This document shows, one piece after another, positions 20,084-37,163 of a stretch of DNA of 37,764 nt. Numbering within the stretch: the stretch's first letter is position 1; each line of letters starts with the position of its first letter. Position numbers and translations under genes: made by a program. The notes under the pieces are model-generated. The model had not been told where the DNA came from. It did no database searches and was given only the letters and a program-made list of their open reading frames with translations. The DNA lies in the IMG/VR virus record IMGVR_UViG_3300037153_000309, positions 1-37,764 of that record; one strand, 5' to 3'. The stretch comes from a virus.

Positions 20084-20114
20084 CACCGACCGTTGACTCA
20101 CTAAGGTGTTCGCC

Positions 20115-20669
20115 ATGGCCCAGACCTCGGCTCACACCGTCGCCGCGGAACTGCGACGACGGCTACCCGGCCTGCCCGTCAAGAAGCTCCACAAGCTGCT
20201 CTACTACTGCCAGGGCCACCACCTGGCCACCTTCGGCGAACCCCTGTTCCACGAGACGATCTCCGCCTGGGATATGGGCCCCGTCGTCGGCCAACTCTGG
20301 TACCTCGAGAAGAAGAGCGGCCCGGCAGACGCCGCACCCGAATCCGACGAGGCGGTCCTGAACACGATCGGGTACGTGGCAAGCCGCTACGGACAGCTCA
20401 ACGGGCTCCAGCTGGAACGGCTCACCCACAGCGAGACCCCCTGGCTCGAAGCCGACGACCGTCGCCTGGCAGGGGAGAGCGAAAGGATCCCAACCGCCTC
20501 GATCGAGCGGTACTTCCGCGAGGCCGCGCTCGACCAGGACGACGAGCTGACACCGGTCGACTCCGAACTCCTTCGCGAGCTGCTCGACGGTGCCGAGCAG
20601 CGACTCACCGACCACCTCGACACGGACTCCATCGACGACCTGCGGCGCCACTTCGCCACACATGGCTGA
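20115..20669 (+). CDS. Panacea (SocA-like, DUF4065) domain antitoxin
   Basis: In this 184-aa protein, residues 20-62 (LPVKKLHKLLYYCQGHHLA, then SAWDMGPVVGQLWY) are a clear Panacea/SocA-like signature, and the LERLTHSETPWLEA segment is also typical. Family knowledge: Panacea domains neutralise many unrelated toxins and often sit upstream of the toxin gene. ATG 20115 has an AAGG site six bases upstream; an in-frame GTG at 20106 is the alternative. It overlaps the next ORF by eight bases. The LexA box upstream suggests DNA-damage induction. It lies just after the lysis genes, a common moron position. Confidence 0.85.
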   Translation: MAQTSAHTVAAELRRRLPGLPVKKLHKLLYYCQGHHLATFGEPLFHETISAWDMGPVVGQLWYLEKKSGPADAAPESDEAVLNTIGYVASRYGQLNGLQLERLTHSETPWLEADDRRLAGESERIPTASIERYFREAALDQDDELTPVDSELLRELLDGAEQRLTDHLDTDSIDDLRRHFATHG

Positions 20670-20967
20670 CCCGGCCGGGCCTCCCTGGGCACTGGTCGGG
20701 TTCAAGGACCGCTACGACACCTGGCTCGCCCAAGACCCCGTGCCCGACGCGTTCGTGCGCCTCGTCGTGGAGACCTGGATCCTCAGCCGCAGCACCGACC
20801 CCTACCAAGGCGCCCAACGACTCCCCGAGTTCGGTCCCAACTTCTGGGGCGGCAGAATCGCCGGCACCGAACAAGGCGACCACGTCGTCGTCGGCTACTA
20901 CTGGATCAACGAGACCAACAACACCGTCCGCTGCGACAGCATCGCCACTCTCTCGCTACCGCTGTAA
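20662..20967 (+). CDS. Putative toxin partner of the Panacea antitoxin, unrecognised
   Basis: This 101-aa protein starts with an ATG inside the end of the antitoxin gene (8-base overlap), the classic coupled toxin-antitoxin layout. Helical N-terminal half: FKDRYDTWLAQDP, FVRLVVETWILSRSTDPYQGA. Beta-rich C-terminal half: GRIAGTEQGDHVVVGYYWIN, VRCDSIATLSLPL. The size and helix-then-sheet order would suit a RelE/ParE-sized toxin, but no catalytic motif of a known class is visible. The toxin role is inferred only from pairing with a Panacea gene. Confidence 0.6.
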   Translation: MADPAGPPWALVGFKDRYDTWLAQDPVPDAFVRLVVETWILSRSTDPYQGAQRLPEFGPNFWGGRIAGTEQGDHVVVGYYWINETNNTVRCDSIATLSLPL

Positions 20968-21090: not shown

Positions 21091-22722
21091 GTGGCGGAAG
21101 TGCACCACTGGGACAATGAGGCGCTTTCCTCAACCCAGGGAGAACACGTGGAGACTCCCGATCGAGTGCTCTATTGCCGCGACAACGCCGACGCCTTGAA
21201 CGAGATCCCCGACGACAGCGTCGACCTGATCTATCTCGACCCGCCGTTTTTCTCGAATCGGGTCTACGAGGTCATCTGGGGGGACGAAGCGGAGGTCCGG
21301 TCATTCGAGGACCGCTGGGAGGGAGGGATGCGCCACTACATCGCCTGGATGCGGCACCGCGTGTTACAGCTGCACCGGGTGCTGCGGCCGACCGGCTCGA
21401 TCTACCTGCACTGCGATCCGCATGCAAGCCACTATCTGAAGATCATGCTGGACGAGATCTTCGGCATGTCCTACTTCCGGAACGAAATCGTGTGGCGACG
21501 CACCGGGGCGCACGGCAAGAGCCGGCGATATGCGCCGATCCACGACACGATCCTCTTCTACACGAAAACCAACGACTACACGTGGAACCGACCGAAACGC
21601 CCCTACATGCGCGGCCACGTTGAAGAGTTTTTCGTTCAGGACAGCCAAGGCTGGCGAACCAACTACTACGGGAACGTGCTGACGGGCAGCGGCCGGCGAG
21701 GCGGGCTCTCCGGTCAACCCTGGCGGGGCATTGACCCGTCGAGCAAGGAGCGCCACTGGGCCATCCCGGGGGCACTCGTCGAGGAGGTCGATGAAGATCT
21801 CAGCGGCCTGAACCAGCACCAGAAGCTGGATCGCCTGCTGGAGCTCGGTTACATCACGCTCGATCCCAACGCAGCATGGCCCATGTATCAGCACTACATC
21901 CGCCCTCACGACGGAACTCCCGCCCCGGACCTCTGGACATACCAGCCGTACACCGAGGGCACCGTCTTCGGGACCGAGGAGGGCGTCGACGCCGACGTGC
22001 GCTGGCTATCAACCCGCGACCGCGAACGCCTCGGCTACCCCACGCAGAAGCCTGAGGCGCTGCTAGCGCGAATCATCAGGGCAAGCAGCAACGGGGGCGA
22101 CACGGTCCTCGACCCCTTCTGCGGATGCGGTACCACGGTCAGCGTCGCGGAGAAACTCAACAGGAACTGGATCGGCATCGACATCAGCCCCACCGCCGTC
22201 AACCTGATGCGAGACCGGCTCAACCGAATCGGGAACGTGCGACCGTTCCAGGTACTCAACATGCCCGAGACCCAGCAGGATCTGCGAGCACTCAAACCCT
22301 TCGAGTTTCAGAACTGGGTCATCGCCAAGTTCGTCGGCACCCACAGCCCCCGCAAGTCCGGTGACATGGGAATCGACGGGTACAGCTTCTTCGAGCACAA
22401 TCCCATCCAGGTCAAACGCTCCGACCGGGTCGGCCGCAACGTGATCGACAACTTCGAAACCGCCATGCGCCGCGGACACCACACCGTCGGCTACATCGTC
22501 GGCTTCAGCTTCACCCGCGGCGCGCACGAAGAGGTCGCCCGGGCCAAATGGCACGACGGACTCGAGATCCGACTCCGCACCGTGGCCGACCTGCTCAAGC
22601 CCCAGCTCAAGGACCAGATCCCCGAACTGGGCCAGGTCGTCGAGCTACCCCTCCCGCCGTCTCGACCGCGTCAGGCCCTGCCCAGCCCAGACGAGCTCAT
22701 CGCCAGCGACCTCGCCGGCTGA
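21091..22722 (+). CDS. DNA methyltransferase fused to an Mrr-like nuclease domain
   Basis: This 543-aa protein combines two domains. The N-terminal two thirds is a beta-class N6-adenine/N4-cytosine methyltransferase: motif IV DPPF (50-53), the TQKPEALLARII helix (318-329), then motif I LDPFCGCGTT (340-349), in the IV-before-I order of that class. Residues 400-485 look like an Mrr-type PD-(D/E)XK nuclease: FEFQNWVIAKF, GDMGIDGY (D429) and the QxK pair IQVKR (Q440, K442), then FSFTRGAHEEV. Putative roles are self-contained restriction-modification, host-restriction evasion or exclusion of other phages. The GTG start is tentative; GTG 21148 in frame is an alternative. Confidence 0.85.
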   Translation: MAEVHHWDNEALSSTQGEHVETPDRVLYCRDNADALNEIPDDSVDLIYLDPPFFSNRVYEVIWGDEAEVRSFEDRWEGGMRHYIAWMRHRVLQLHRVLRPTGSIYLHCDPHASHYLKIMLDEIFGMSYFRNEIVWRRTGAHGKSRRYAPIHDTILFYTKTNDYTWNRPKRPYMRGHVEEFFVQDSQGWRTNYYGNVLTGSGRRGGLSGQPWRGIDPSSKERHWAIPGALVEEVDEDLSGLNQHQKLDRLLELGYITLDPNAAWPMYQHYIRPHDGTPAPDLWTYQPYTEGTVFGTEEGVDADVRWLSTRDRERLGYPTQKPEALLARIIRASSNGGDTVLDPFCGCGTTVSVAEKLNRNWIGIDISPTAVNLMRDRLNRIGNVRPFQVLNMPETQQDLRALKPFEFQNWVIAKFVGTHSPRKSGDMGIDGYSFFEHNPIQVKRSDRVGRNVIDNFETAMRRGHHTVGYIVGFSFTRGAHEEVARAKWHDGLEIRLRTVADLLKPQLKDQIPELGQVVELPLPPSRPRQALPSPDELIASDLAG

Positions 22723-34097: not shown

Positions 34098-34664
34098 ATG
34101 ACCCACCTGGCCAGAATCACCGAGCACCCCACCGACCCGGACGTCGTCCTGATCGACATCCCCTACGAGCTCAACGCCGAGATGCGCCGCTACGAAGCCG
34201 CACGAATGGCACCCGAACTGCGCGGCTACGTACTCGCCGCCGAACACATCGACGGCTTCACCCGCTTCGCCGAACGTCTTAACATGCACGTCGTCGACGA
34301 GCGTCGACACGCCCCAAACCCCCGGCCGCTAATGCCAGAATGCGCCCACTGCGGACAGCCCGCTAAACTGTCCAGCCAGCCCGAATACTGCCCCGGCTGC
34401 GGACAACAATTCGAACCCTATTTCCACGCCGAAACACCGGGCGAATCCCGCGTCAGCTGCGAATACTGCGGACACCCGAACAAACCCGGCTTCGGCTATT
34501 GCGCCGAATGCGGGAAACCAATGCCGAAAATCCCCGTCACCTACGTCCGGCAACCCAGCCGCACCCGGCTCAAGAACCCGAAGCGGCTGGCCGAGACGCT
34601 CGGGGAGACCCAGCTGCTGCTCACCGACCTCAGCACGGATCCCTCGGTCACGCAGGCGTCATGA
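34098..34664 (+). CDS. Double zinc-ribbon protein, unknown
   Basis: The N-terminal half of this 188-aa protein is helical ([35 protein letters not shown]). Four C-x2-C pairs follow: [23 protein letters not shown] and CAECGKPMP, i.e. two zinc ribbons. The C-terminus is polar. It could be a DNA- or RNA-binding adaptor; no specific family is known to me. It is the last rightward gene before the leftward operon, and the stops overlap by six bases at 34659-34664. Confidence 0.75.
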
Positions 34665-34949
34665 TTCACGCAATCGGGAGCTCGACCGCTGCTGGCCGAA
34701 CCGCTGGTACGCCGCCTGCTTGGTGGTCCCCAACGCGGCCCCGATCAGGGTCCACGAGTCGCCAGCCTCCCGGGCCGCCGCCACCGCATCCCGCAGCTCC
34801 TGCTCGGCGTCCTCGACACCCTTGCGGGCGGCGATGATCCGGCGGAAGTGCACCGCGTCGCGTATGTCGAGAGTCGTAGGGTCGAGCGAATCCAGCCAGG
34901 ACTCGATGTCGGGCTTGGCGGCCGCCTCCTCGTCGGAAATCTCGCTCAC
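34659..34949 (-). CDS. Small HTH protein (last gene of the leftward operon)
   Basis: This 96-aa protein has a GTG start one base after the CopG-like gene stop. The helical sequence ends in a clear [43 protein letters not shown]. The pattern 'G[21 protein letters not shown]' is a widespread small actinobacterial family. The 35286 gene carries a related HTH (VPWVAIAVGLGVSHQAAMKR), so the operon has two paralogue-like regulators. Confidence 0.75.
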
Positions 34950-34950
34950 G

Positions 34951-35268
34951 TCAGCCCCGCACCAGCCCGACCACCCGGTCGGTCAGCTGCCGCAGCTGCT
35001 CCACCGTCTCCAGCAGCGCCACCTCATCGCCGGCGTGGCGCAGAGCAGCCGCGCGGATCAGCGCCGTCACCTTCACGCCGGCGTCATCGGCCCGGGCGCG
35101 CAGTTTTTCGATCTCCTCATCGGAGAACCGCACCGAGATCGTCACGTTGCGCCGGACCTCCACCGCCACCTCCGGACCCGGGAAGGCGTCATCGGCCTGG
35201 TCGCGGTGCTCATACCACCACTCGGCCTCCTCGGCCTCGGTCATGCCTGCCATCTTGTCGCCGCTCAT
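34951..35268 (-). CDS. CopG/BrnA-like ribbon-helix-helix antitoxin candidate
   Basis: This protein is 105 aa from ATG 35268; the longer open frame upstream has no support. The N-terminal [20 protein letters not shown] resembles the toxin-wrapping arm of BrnA-like antitoxins. The ribbon-helix-helix is [20 protein letters not shown], then [22 protein letters not shown]-terminal helix follows. It is the third gene of a leftward operon headed by a toxin-like ORF, so it may bind the twin operators at 35797-35840. Confidence 0.75.
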
Positions 35269-35285
35269 GCTCACCGCCCGGCCGA

Positions 35286-35540
35286 TCAGACCTTGTCCCG
35301 ATACCGCTTCATCGCCGCTTGGTGCGACACCCCCAGCCCGACCGCAATCGCAACCCACGGCACCCCGTCCGCGCGGGCAGTCACCACCGCCGCCTCGATC
35401 GCACGCTCGGCCACCTCCCGCGCCGCCACCGCCTGCTCGATATCGGCGATCGCCGACCGGTCACGCATCTTCGCCCGGTTGGGCTCGAAGTGCTCGAACC
35501 GCTCGGCCGCCTCCGCATCGGAAATCTTCGTCTTCCTCAT
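35286..35540 (-). CDS. Small HTH protein, possible antitoxin
   Basis: This protein is 84 aa from ATG 35540. It contains KISDAEAAERFEHFEPNRAK, SAIADIEQAVAAREVAERAI, EAAVVTARADGVPWVAIAVG, LGVSHQAAMKRYRD, ending in an HTH. It directly follows the toxin-like gene (28 bases) and precedes the CopG-like gene, so either may be the antitoxin. Extension upstream in frame overlaps the toxin gene and is not needed. Confidence 0.72.
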   Translation of the reverse strand: MRKTKISDAEAAERFEHFEPNRAKMRDRSAIADIEQAVAAREVAERAIEAAVVTARADGVPWVAIAVGLGVSHQAAMKRYRDKV

Positions 35541-35568
35541 CGCTATCACCTCACGCCCGCTGTCCTCG

Positions 35569-35793
35569 TCACGGCCAGAACTTCCGACGCGCGGGCATCG
35601 CGTGGATGATCCGGGGATCCTCGTCGTCCTCGACGACGCCGACCTCAAGCACCGCCCCGTTGCGGGCCGGGCCGATGAACATCACCAGCTCCTCGTCGCC
35701 TTCGTCCACGAAGTAGCTCAGATGGTGGGTGATCGCGTGGAGCATGTCCTCGTCGGCGATGCCTCGCCTCCGCGCGCTCTCGGTGATCCTCAC
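35569..35793 (-). CDS. Toxin-like small protein (BrnT/RelE-sized), first gene of leftward operon
   Basis: This protein is 74 aa from GTG 35793. The sequence VRITESARRRGIADEDMLHA, ITHHLSYFVDEGDEELVMFI, GPARNGAVLEVGVVEDDEDP, RIIHAMPARRKFWP has a helix-then-sheet order, a IGPxxxGxxLEV strand pair and a final IIHAMPARxKF. This resembles BrnT-type toxins and related hypothetical proteins paired with CopG genes. The start lies seven bases after a TATAGT -10, so the transcript should be leaderless. Toxicity is inference. Confidence 0.65.
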   Translation of the reverse strand: MRITESARRRGIADEDMLHAITHHLSYFVDEGDEELVMFIGPARNGAVLEVGVVEDDEDPRIIHAMPARRKFWP

Positions 35794-35796
35794 AAG

Positions 35797-35840
35797 TGCA
35801 ACTATAGTTGCAGGCGGCTCGCATTGCAACTCAGGTTGCA
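35797..35840. promoter_or_regulatory. Twin TGCAAC-N4-GTTGCA operators with embedded promoter
   Basis: TGCAACTATAGTTGCA (35797-35812, a perfect palindrome) and TGCAACTCAGGTTGCA (35825-35840, identical arms) are centred 28 bp apart. On the minus strand, TTGCAA (35829-35824) and TATAGT (35806-35801) form a promoter with a 17-base spacer, each element inside one operator. Repression by an operon-encoded HTH or RHH protein would block both. Confidence 0.8.
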
Positions 35841-35865
35841 GTCTGGGAGGGGTGAGGTCGCGCAC

Positions 35866-35919
35866 ATGACGAGCGCGCAGGCCCCGGACACCTGCCCCGA
35901 GCTCACGGGTGACACGTGA
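35866..35919 (+). CDS. Possible 17-codon leader peptide ORF
   Basis: ATG 35866 to TGA 35919 encodes 17 aa (MTSAQAPDTCPELTGDT) with a GAGG upstream, and its stop overlaps the GTG of the next gene. It may be a leader peptide or the remnant of a gene cut by the leftward operon. The support is the overlap only. Confidence 0.3.
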   Translation: MTSAQAPDTCPELTGDT

Positions 35920-36722
35920 TGAGCCGGCGTGCGTCGTGTTGTTGTGGTCGTCCGACGCCGCAGCAGTCGTACCTGTGCCGGGTCTGCACCGACGCGTACG
36001 CCGCCGCGCTGCAGGCGGTGCCGACGATCGGCTACGAGCTGGCGGTCACGCTGGCCAGGCAGCGCCGGTTCAGCGATGACCCGGTCTCCCGCGATGGCGG
36101 GCTGCCGTACGACACCGGTGCCAGTGCCGCGCTGGCCCGACTGCGCGCCGAGCTCGTCGGGCTGGTCCGGCTGTGCGTGGCGGAGCGGGTCAGCTCCACC
36201 GACTACCGGCACCGGCTCCCGGCCGACACGCTGTCGTCGATGAGCCGGTGGCTGCGGTGGCGGGTCGACGGGGTGGCGGCGAGGCCGTGGGCGGGTGACG
36301 CGCTGGGCCTGGTCGCGGTGGTCGCCGCCTGCGAACGGGTGGTGGACCGCCCGGTGCCGCGCAGCTACGCCGGGCCGTGCGACGTGTGCGGCGCCGACCT
36401 GTACGCGCTTCCCGGCCGCACCGAGCTCAGGTGCCGGCGCTGCCGGGCCGGCTACGACCTGGCAGCCCGGCGCGCCGACCTGCTGCGCCGCGCCCACGAC
36501 CGGCTGGCCACCAGCACCGACATCGCCCGCGGCCTGTCCAGCCTGGACCTGCCGGTCAGCCCGGAGCGGCTGCGGCAGTGGCACCACCGCGGTCGCCTGC
36601 TGCAGCGTGGCCACGACCGACGTGGCCGGCCGCTGTACCGGGTCGGCGACGTCGTCGAGCTGCTGCTGGAGTCCGTCTCCGCGCGGGGTCTTGCGCAGCC
36701 CCGTGCCGGTGTGTCACGCTGA
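35919..36722 (+). CDS. Zinc/HTH regulatory protein before HNH, unknown
   Basis: This protein is 267 aa from ATG 35919; a GTG at 35916 is in frame. The N-terminal cysteines (SCCCGRPTPQQSYLCRVC) suggest a zinc site. A helical middle is followed by a zinc ribbon (GPCDVCGADLYALPGRTELR, CRRCRAGYDL). A MerR/Mor-like winged HTH ends the protein (SSLDLPVSPERLRQWHHRGR, RPLYRVGDVVELLLE). Such proteins lie just upstream of HNH-terminase genes in actinophages and may activate late transcription. Confidence 0.7.
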   Translation: MSRRASCCCGRPTPQQSYLCRVCTDAYAAALQAVPTIGYELAVTLARQRRFSDDPVSRDGGLPYDTGASAALARLRAELVGLVRLCVAERVSSTDYRHRLPADTLSSMSRWLRWRVDGVAARPWAGDALGLVAVVAACERVVDRPVPRSYAGPCDVCGADLYALPGRTELRCRRCRAGYDLAARRADLLRRAHDRLATSTDIARGLSSLDLPVSPERLRQWHHRGRLLQRGHDRRGRPLYRVGDVVELLLESVSARGLAQPRAGVSR

Positions 36723-36726
36723 AGTG

Positions 36727-36757
36727 CCGACGGACGAGCGCGCTCGAAAACCGTCGG
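36727..36757. repeat. Nested inverted repeats upstream of HNH
   Basis: CCGACGG (36727-36733) pairs with CCGTCGG (36751-36757). Between them lies the palindrome CGAGCGCGCTCG (36736-36747). A double stem or cruciform directly after the regulator stop could be a terminator part or a terminase-related site. Confidence 0.45.
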
Positions 36758-36779
36758 CATTGTCGTCTCGACCCCCGAC

Positions 36780-36811
36780 AGCCCCGGCTCTGCCCCCCAA
36801 GGGCCGGGGCT
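36780..36811 (+). terminator. Probable intrinsic terminator
   Basis: AGCCCCGGC (36780-36788) and GCCGGGGCT (36803-36811) form a perfect 9-bp G/C-rich stem with a 14-base loop, followed by TCGTCGT. It lies between the regulator and the HNH gene and probably ends the early transcript. Confidence 0.6.
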
Positions 36812-36836
36812 TCGTCGTACCCGGGCGGAGGTCGCC

Positions 36837-37163
36837 GTGCCGGTCAGACCACCCAGCCGCTGCCCGCGCTGCGGCGCCGTGCACAAGGCCAGGCGATGCC
36901 CGGCCTGCTACCCGTCGTGGGGCAGCAGCACGCGCCGGCCGACCACCACCGCCGCGTACCAGCGGCTGCGGTTGTGGGTGTTCGCCGAGCAGGACTACCT
37001 GTGCGCGTGGCCGGGATGCGGTCGGCTGGCGGTCGAGCTCGACCACATCGTGGCGGTGTCCGACGGTGGCGGCGACGAGCCGGAGAACCTGCAGGGCCTG
37101 TGCGTCGAGCACCACCGGGCGAAGACGCAGGCGGAGTCTCGTCGGGGTGCGGCGAACCGGTAG
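36837..37163 (+). CDS. HNH endonuclease next to terminase
   Basis: This is a 108-aa protein with a GTG start. The N-terminal zinc-like cysteines (SRCPRCGAVHKARRCPACYP) and the central YLCAWPGC lead to the HNH core VELDHIVAVSDGG, ENLQGLCVEHHRAKT: His in LDHI, Asn in ENLQ, His-His in VEHH. HNH proteins beside terminase are known to be needed for cos cleavage in HK97-like phages, so a cos site is expected close by. It is followed by a 112-base gap to terS. Confidence 0.9.
   Translation: MPVRPPSRCPRCGAVHKARRCPACYPSWGSSTRRPTTTAAYQRLRLWVFAEQDYLCAWPGCGRLAVELDHIVAVSDGGGDEPENLQGLCVEHHRAKTQAESRRGAANR

Follow-up and report, generated by a model that had tools for sequence, protein, structure and literature searches.

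The window analysed here, a 37,764-base IMG/VR virus record, contains four small genes in tandem on the minus strand (35793-34659), oriented against the neighbouring phage genes, and the question raised by this locus is what such a cassette encodes and how it is controlled. The window comes from a tailed phage of actinobacteria that encodes a tyrosine integrase and a terminase sharing approximately 56% identity with its counterparts in Arthrobacter and Gordonia phages. The G+C content is 64-70%. The gaps between the four genes are 28 nt (genes 1 and 2), 17 nt (genes 2 and 3, measured to the ATG of gene 3), and 1 nt (genes 3 and 4). A toxin-like gene followed by tightly packed, co-directional DNA-binding genes, all behind a promoter with twin operators, had been proposed in the original prediction, and this architecture was borne out (Table 1). 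None of genes 1-4 had a match in PADLOC. The reading favored here, at a probability of roughly three in four, is that this is a phage-borne type II toxin-antitoxin operon of the RelS-RelI kind with two extra genes, in which the first RelI (RelI-1) would repress the promoter at the twin operators and the last gene would be a captured second RelI (RelI-2).

Table 1. Features of the operon, its promoter, and the flanking genes
Feature	Coordinates	Strand	Description
-35 hexamer TTGCAA	35824..35829	-	last A (35824) one base outside operator 2
-10 hexamer TATAGT	35801..35806	-	wholly inside operator 1
Operator 1 TGCAACTATAGTTGCA	35797..35812		encloses the -10; centred 11 nt before the start of relS
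Operator 2 TGCAACTCAGGTTGCA (plus-strand reading)	35825..35840		overlaps with the -35; spacing to operator 1, 28 bp
Gene 1, relS homologue	35569..35793	-	GTG start, 74 aa; BrnT/RelE-fold RNase-type toxin, predicted leaderless
relI-1 ribosome-binding site GAGGTGAT	35545..35552	-	complementary to the 16S 3' end AUCACCUC
Gene 2, RelI-1	35286..35540	-	84 aa; coiled-coil and HTH antitoxin, likely autorepressor; recognition helix GVSHQAAMKRY
Gene 3, ribbon-helix-helix (NikA/MobA-like)	34951..35268	-	acidic N-terminus; ATG start, GTG 35274 as alternative
Gene 4, RelI-2	34659..34949	-	96 aa; GTG start 1 nt past the gene 3 stop; no RelS of its own
Zinc-ribbon gene flanking the operon	34098-34664	+	
phrog_908 gene flanking the operon	35916-36722	+	

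RelS-RelI is the Rv2663-Rv2664 pair of M. tuberculosis, described by Han et al. in June 2026 (PMC13284704; PDB 9SDC). The RelS cleavage site in 16S rRNA falls within the anti-Shine-Dalgarno sequence, between C1520 and U1521, and RelI blocks the RelS active site (PMC13284704). The regulation of relSI was left open in that study, which called for study of its transcriptional and translational control (PMC13284704).

Gene 1 has the BrnT fold and is, specifically, a RelS homologue. It matched M. tuberculosis RelS (9SDC chain C) with a phmmer E-value of 8.1e-11, with 31 of 72 residues identical, and a seven-sequence profile (A1) matched the same protein at 3.6e-27. It also belongs to PHROG 17063, annotated 'toxin' (3.7e-11). 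The nearest solved folds to its AlphaFold model (pLDDT 86.5) were the BrnT structures 7vd7 and 3u97; these Foldseek matches were the best obtained but had weak E-values (0.018-0.04), from a library that extended to April 2026, and 9SDC was not among them. Both gene 2 and gene 4 matched RelI (9SDC chain A), at phmmer E-values of 5.7e-9 and 1e-25, respectively, the better match being that of gene 4, and both are thus considered antitoxins. The earlier picture of a toxin with three candidate regulators was therefore mostly wrong, although gene 2 is also likely to be an autorepressor. The operon resembles M. tuberculosis RelS-RelI in its toxin-first two-gene core, similar length, fold class, and most catalytic positions, and differs in that it is phage-borne, adds a ribbon-helix-helix gene and a second RelI, and has Arg9-Arg10 in place of Lys9-His10.

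To collect related loci, profiles were searched against phages, plasmids, and viral contigs as well as approximately 970 whole genomes from relatives of an actinobacterial MAG. Homology, gene order and linkage, operator conservation, and the statistics given below are results of computation. RelS-like loci suited to upstream analysis numbered 96, with a RelI gene following in 55, a ribbon-helix-helix antitoxin in 36, and neither in 5. Linkage in other genomes was found for genes 1 and 2, since relS and relI were adjacent, toxin first, in 55 sampled loci (window included), but not for genes 3 and 4, and the four-gene order was seen in the window and in no relative sampled. Gordonia phage AlumE (genes 35-34) and Mycobacterium phage prophi104-2 (genes 31-32), an M. 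abscessus prophage, carry phage-borne relS-relI pairs like that of the window, annotated as 'BrnT-like toxin' with 'DNA binding protein' or 'antitoxin' and with no reference to RelS-RelI. These share the palindromes at the -10 and -35 and the leaderless layout with the window, but have the operator TGTAAA..TTTACA, a RelI of the M. tuberculosis clade, and no genes 3-4. Two IMG/VR contigs (L002 and L003) share the operator sequence, the 28-bp twin spacing, and a RelI of the gene 2 clade, but consist of relS-relI only, and their RelS keeps Lys9-His10 and is identical at 43 of 70 residues.

Two other loci had unusual arrangements. An actinobacterial MAG contig (L010) encodes two different RelS-like toxins side by side (1366-1605 and 1782-2003), with RelI following the second only. 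In the Rhodococcus aetherivorans plasmid pRaL13b (L075), relI is listed in the collection's incomplete gene table and the upstream relS homologue is not, so that the latter is possibly an unannotated toxin gene.

In the mechanism that we infer from the sequence, RelI-1 would sequester RelS and, probably together with RelS, would bind both TGCAAC-N4-GTTGCA operators through its HTH. This binding would cover the -10 and the -35 and block the promoter, so that the operon would repress itself and would be derepressed when RelI falls. A leaderless message for relS and a strong ribosome-binding site for relI-1 (GAGGTGAT) would together yield an excess of antitoxin. The operon would be transcribed separately from its oppositely directed neighbours, presumably for the prophage state.

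A RelI tree of 52 rows, which had few columns and some long branches (L002 among them), paired gene 2 with the RelI of L002 (support 99/95) and nested gene 4 in a clade with the RelI of M. tuberculosis, prophi104-2, AlumE, R. ruber, and Rhodococcus plasmids (99/98). Gene 4 is identical to M. tuberculosis RelI at 45 of 79 residues. At the positions that face the RelS active site, gene 2 has Ala8 and Glu12, with Ala at position 8 in many relatives, and gene 4 keeps the acidic residues Glu8 and Asp12. The recognition helix of gene 4, TKQAAY (TRQAAY in its relatives), belongs to a class found with TGTAAA operators. No TGTAAA-N6-TTTACA site was found near the operon, which makes RelI-2 unlikely as the operon's own repressor, and that role was rejected.

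Gene 4 thus appears to have been captured as a second RelI, one of the M. tuberculosis type, and most likely its target would be another, host-type RelS. A further step would be that gene 4, by analogy with phage-borne orphan antitoxins, neutralizes such a RelS in the host and so protects the phage or lysogen. This proposal, which concerns gene 4 only and is compatible with the main reading, is tentative, with somewhat less than an even chance of being correct. The clade of gene 4, the distance of the operon RelS from the M. tuberculosis type (the 31 of 72 identities noted above), the acidic residues at positions 8 and 12, and the absence near the operon of an operator matching its helix class all point towards it. 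However, no host RelS was found, gene 4 could bind gene 1 instead, and a lone RelI-like HTH in another phage contig (L076) suggests that orphan copies may have other roles.

A feature of gene 1 that fits poorly with an active toxin is its pair of arginines at catalytic positions 9 and 10, where the usual residues are Lys and His, and this also counts against the main reading. Position 10 is His in 52 of the 55 RelI-paired loci (a set that includes the window) and in all 36 ribbon-helix-helix-paired relatives, and the substitutions K9A, H10A, and H64A severely affected the toxicity of M. tuberculosis RelS (PMC13284704). With its catalytic His10 replaced by Arg, and Arg at position 9 as well, the toxicity of gene 1 is doubtful. 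The module may in that case have decayed or been domesticated, with a catalytically inactive RelS retained as a co-repressor or scaffold and the operon now serving as a regulator cassette. This outcome is rather unlikely, although well short of negligible. Gene 1 retains His64, Arg61, Arg69, and Lys71, and the operators, promoter, and antitoxin are intact. Arg at position 9 is common (14 of the 55 RelI-paired loci), and although replacement of His10 by Arg is rare, one other locus (L077) likewise has Arg-Arg, so that the pair may be a tolerated alternative; a third (L093) has Arg-Leu. Basic residues can, moreover, serve in RelE-type active sites. Whether gene 1 is toxic is thus uncertain.

The promoter combination TTGCAA-17-TATAGT (35829-35801, minus strand) was the sole sigma-70-like match in 34400-36900, where shuffled sequences gave 0.0 ± 0.2, and both of the predicted TGCAAC-N4-GTTGCA palindromes were present and perfect. 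The claim that each hexamer lies inside one palindrome was accurate for the -10 but not entirely for the -35, whose final base is excluded. No further copy of the palindrome, allowing at most 2 mismatches, was found elsewhere in the 37.8 kb.

Analysis of the relatives showed that such palindromes are conserved. Upstream of relS, palindromes exceeded those in dinucleotide shuffles in the RelI-paired group (Fisher p 4e-9, 44 non-redundant loci), and in 25 of these 44 loci an in-frame start lay exactly 11 nt past the centre of a best palindrome. In the ribbon-helix-helix-paired group upstream palindromes were not above shuffles (p 1.0), by a score that counted even-centred palindromes only in a group that has odd-centred GTATTAC-type sites. 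Of the 55 loci, 27 had a strong palindrome (at least 5/6 arm pairs) over the -10 and 13 had one over the -35, in most cases 27-28 bp farther upstream; 37 had at least one of the two. These counts are descriptive, as starts and offsets were chosen with some freedom, which counts against the main reading. Both palindromes reached at least 5/6 in only 3 of the 55 loci, namely the window, L002 (spacing 28 bp), and AlumE (27 bp); that most relatives have only one clear operator likewise counts against it. Since L002 consists of relS-relI only and has the same helix class and twin operators, genes 3-4 are not needed for the operators.

The sequence of the operator varied with the recognition helix of RelI. 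SRQAAR helices occurred with GACAAG, HQAA[MI]K with TGCAAC, TRQAAY with TGTAAAGG, and SKQAAQRK with CGTCAAC. In partial Mantel tests on 35 loci, with three odd-centred operators entered by hand, the RelI helix predicted operator distance when RelS and the RelI N-terminus were controlled (r 0.25, p 0.004), and the RelI N-terminus gave no signal (partial r -0.04). Operator similarity also tracked the relatedness of RelS (partial r 0.35). The match between operator and helix is therefore in part a product of shared descent, which weakens the case for RelI-1 as repressor. So too do the results of Han et al., who found neither evidence of DNA binding nor, upstream of relSI, inverted repeats of the kind that are clear in the window, whose modelling gave no binding to DNA, and who saw part of the HTH taken up by RelS (PMC13284704). 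Nevertheless, conserved palindromes that vary with the recognition helix support autoregulation by RelI. Many type II toxin-antitoxin and phage promoters carry operators, and the palindromes could be sites of another regulator, such as a phage repressor or host factor. This is improbable, because the position of the palindrome relative to relS is common to phages, plasmids, and chromosomes, because its sequence changes with the RelI helix, and because this phage has no additional copies.

Gene 3 had been described as CopG/BrnA-like. It is indeed a ribbon-helix-helix protein, but its match to Pfam BrnA (E 0.1, 13.5 bits) is below the cut-off of 26.1, whereas that to Pfam NikA-like (3.9e-11) is above cut-off, and it also matched NikA in PDB 2ba3 (6e-4). 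Searches of phages, plasmids, viral contigs, and 396 genomes, the last with no known positive control among them, gave no homologue of gene 3. The match of gene 1 to Pfam BrnT_toxin was similarly low (E 0.043, 14.6 bits, cut-off 34.5). BrnT-BrnA of Brucella abortus (PDB 3U97) is like the window operon in toxin fold and toxin-first order, and its promoter is autoregulated, as is proposed for the window operon, but it has a ribbon-helix-helix antitoxin, cleaves mRNA, and is matched in sequence only below the Pfam cut-offs. An ordinary BrnT-BrnA module, with gene 3 as antitoxin and both HTH proteins as accessories, is very improbable and membership in that family was rejected, for although the BrnT fold, the two weak Pfam matches, and the BrnT-like label of the AlumE homologue in GenBank speak for it, both matches fall below cut-off, gene 3 is not adjacent to gene 1, genes 2 and 4 have strong homology to RelI, and the relatives have toxin and RelI without gene 3.

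The RelS-like loci with ribbon-helix-helix antitoxins form a sister group (L025, L027-L033, L036-L039, L041-L044, L051, L054, L055, L058-L060, L062-L064, and L068). Many of these antitoxins have an 'EAEaGYD' motif and most overlap the toxin gene by a few nucleotides, and in many of the loci a start that looks leaderless is closely preceded by a conserved -10 resembling TTTCGTAATACGATT.

The translation of a toxin that destroys the anti-Shine-Dalgarno sequence, and of its antidote, poses a separate problem. The suggestion that gene 1 is leaderless is a reasonable one, as its GTG is 7 nt after the -10. A TANNNT element was located 5-8 nt before the relS start in 35 of the 44 non-redundant RelI-paired loci, compared with 1.9% of start-like codons, and the leaderless layout therefore appears to be a family rule. 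Leaderless ATG and GTG messages are well translated in mycobacteria (PMC4633059). The relI genes, on the other hand, have strong Shine-Dalgarno sites (median -11.85 vs -4.3 kcal/mol), but of a shifted kind. GGTGA was found in 21 of 40 relI ribosome-binding sites, compared with 7 of 142 genes annotated in AlumE and prophi104-2 (p 4e-11) and 1 of 28 Shine-Dalgarno-led ORFs from the MAG loci themselves (p 1e-5), and GGTG was found in 30 of 40 relI sites and in none of 29 for ribbon-helix-helix antitoxins. The coding constraint of a relS end reading ...AGG TGA was considered as the source of GGTGA and is only a partial explanation, given that GGTGA persists in 10 of 15 loci whose relI starts at least 12 nt past the relS stop.

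These sites suggest how the operon might be exempt from its own toxin. Cleavage by RelS between C1520 and U1521 would leave ...GAUCACC-OH. relS, because leaderless, would need no Shine-Dalgarno pairing on cut ribosomes, and the shifted GGTGAT site of relI would pair with the remaining AUCACC, so that both genes would still be read when most messages were not; new antitoxin could then be made and the arrest reversed. In the window, the GGTGAT part of GAGGTGAT pairs with the 16S segment left by RelS, and the predicted pairing is -13.3 with the full 16S end and -7.1 with the truncated one. The median pairing energy with the cut end (GAUCACC) was -5.95 for relI and -1.85 for Shine-Dalgarno-led phage genes. 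The opposite idea, that relI has a Shine-Dalgarno-dependent start switched off by RelS, is weakened because its GGTGA-type sites can pair with the cut end. A comparable proposal for E. coli MazF has been contested (PMC12274833), and self-exemption is accordingly put forward here as a hypothesis. Taken whole, with leaderless relS and GGTGAT relI exempting RelS-RelI operons and this phage carrying a spare RelI against host RelS, the scheme is speculative and on balance unlikely to be right in every part. M. tuberculosis RelE1 and MazF-mt11, according to the literature, act like RelS on the 16S anti-Shine-Dalgarno region, but belong to different families and cut 3 nt further upstream.

Relative to Han et al., the conserved promoter palindromes, leaderless relS, and GGTGA relI sites are new, and together they support autoregulation by RelI and a possible self-exemption. 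The window operon points to an answer on the RelS-RelI regulation that was left open (PMC13284704), and the conserved operators matched to RelI helix classes make RelI autoregulation testable with several natural pairs of operator and helix. From the leaderless toxin and the shifted relI site comes a specific idea, open to checking, of how the antidote can be expressed alongside a toxin that destroys the anti-Shine-Dalgarno sequence. An orphan RelI of the M. tuberculosis type in a phage would, if true, offer a clue to phage counter-defence directed at RelS.

Several other features of this phage were observed. A direct repeat of 555 bp is present at the two ends of the contig (1-554 and 37210-37764; 96.4% identity, 19 mismatches, one gap). 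It includes two nearly identical small-terminase genes and probably reflects either tandem prophages or the assembly, from strain variants, of a genome that is circular or concatemeric. A gene for a SocA/Panacea-domain antitoxin (PF13274, 1.1e-15; 20106-20967, plus strand) overlaps a 104-aa ORF without a family match, and the two are a possible second toxin-antitoxin pair of the same phage. Downstream, a DNA methylase gene (21091-22722, plus strand; N6_N4_Mtase, 6.5e-47) has a weak C-terminal match to the Mrr_cat restriction endonuclease domain (4e-4, just below cut-off), and may encode a fused methylase-nuclease.
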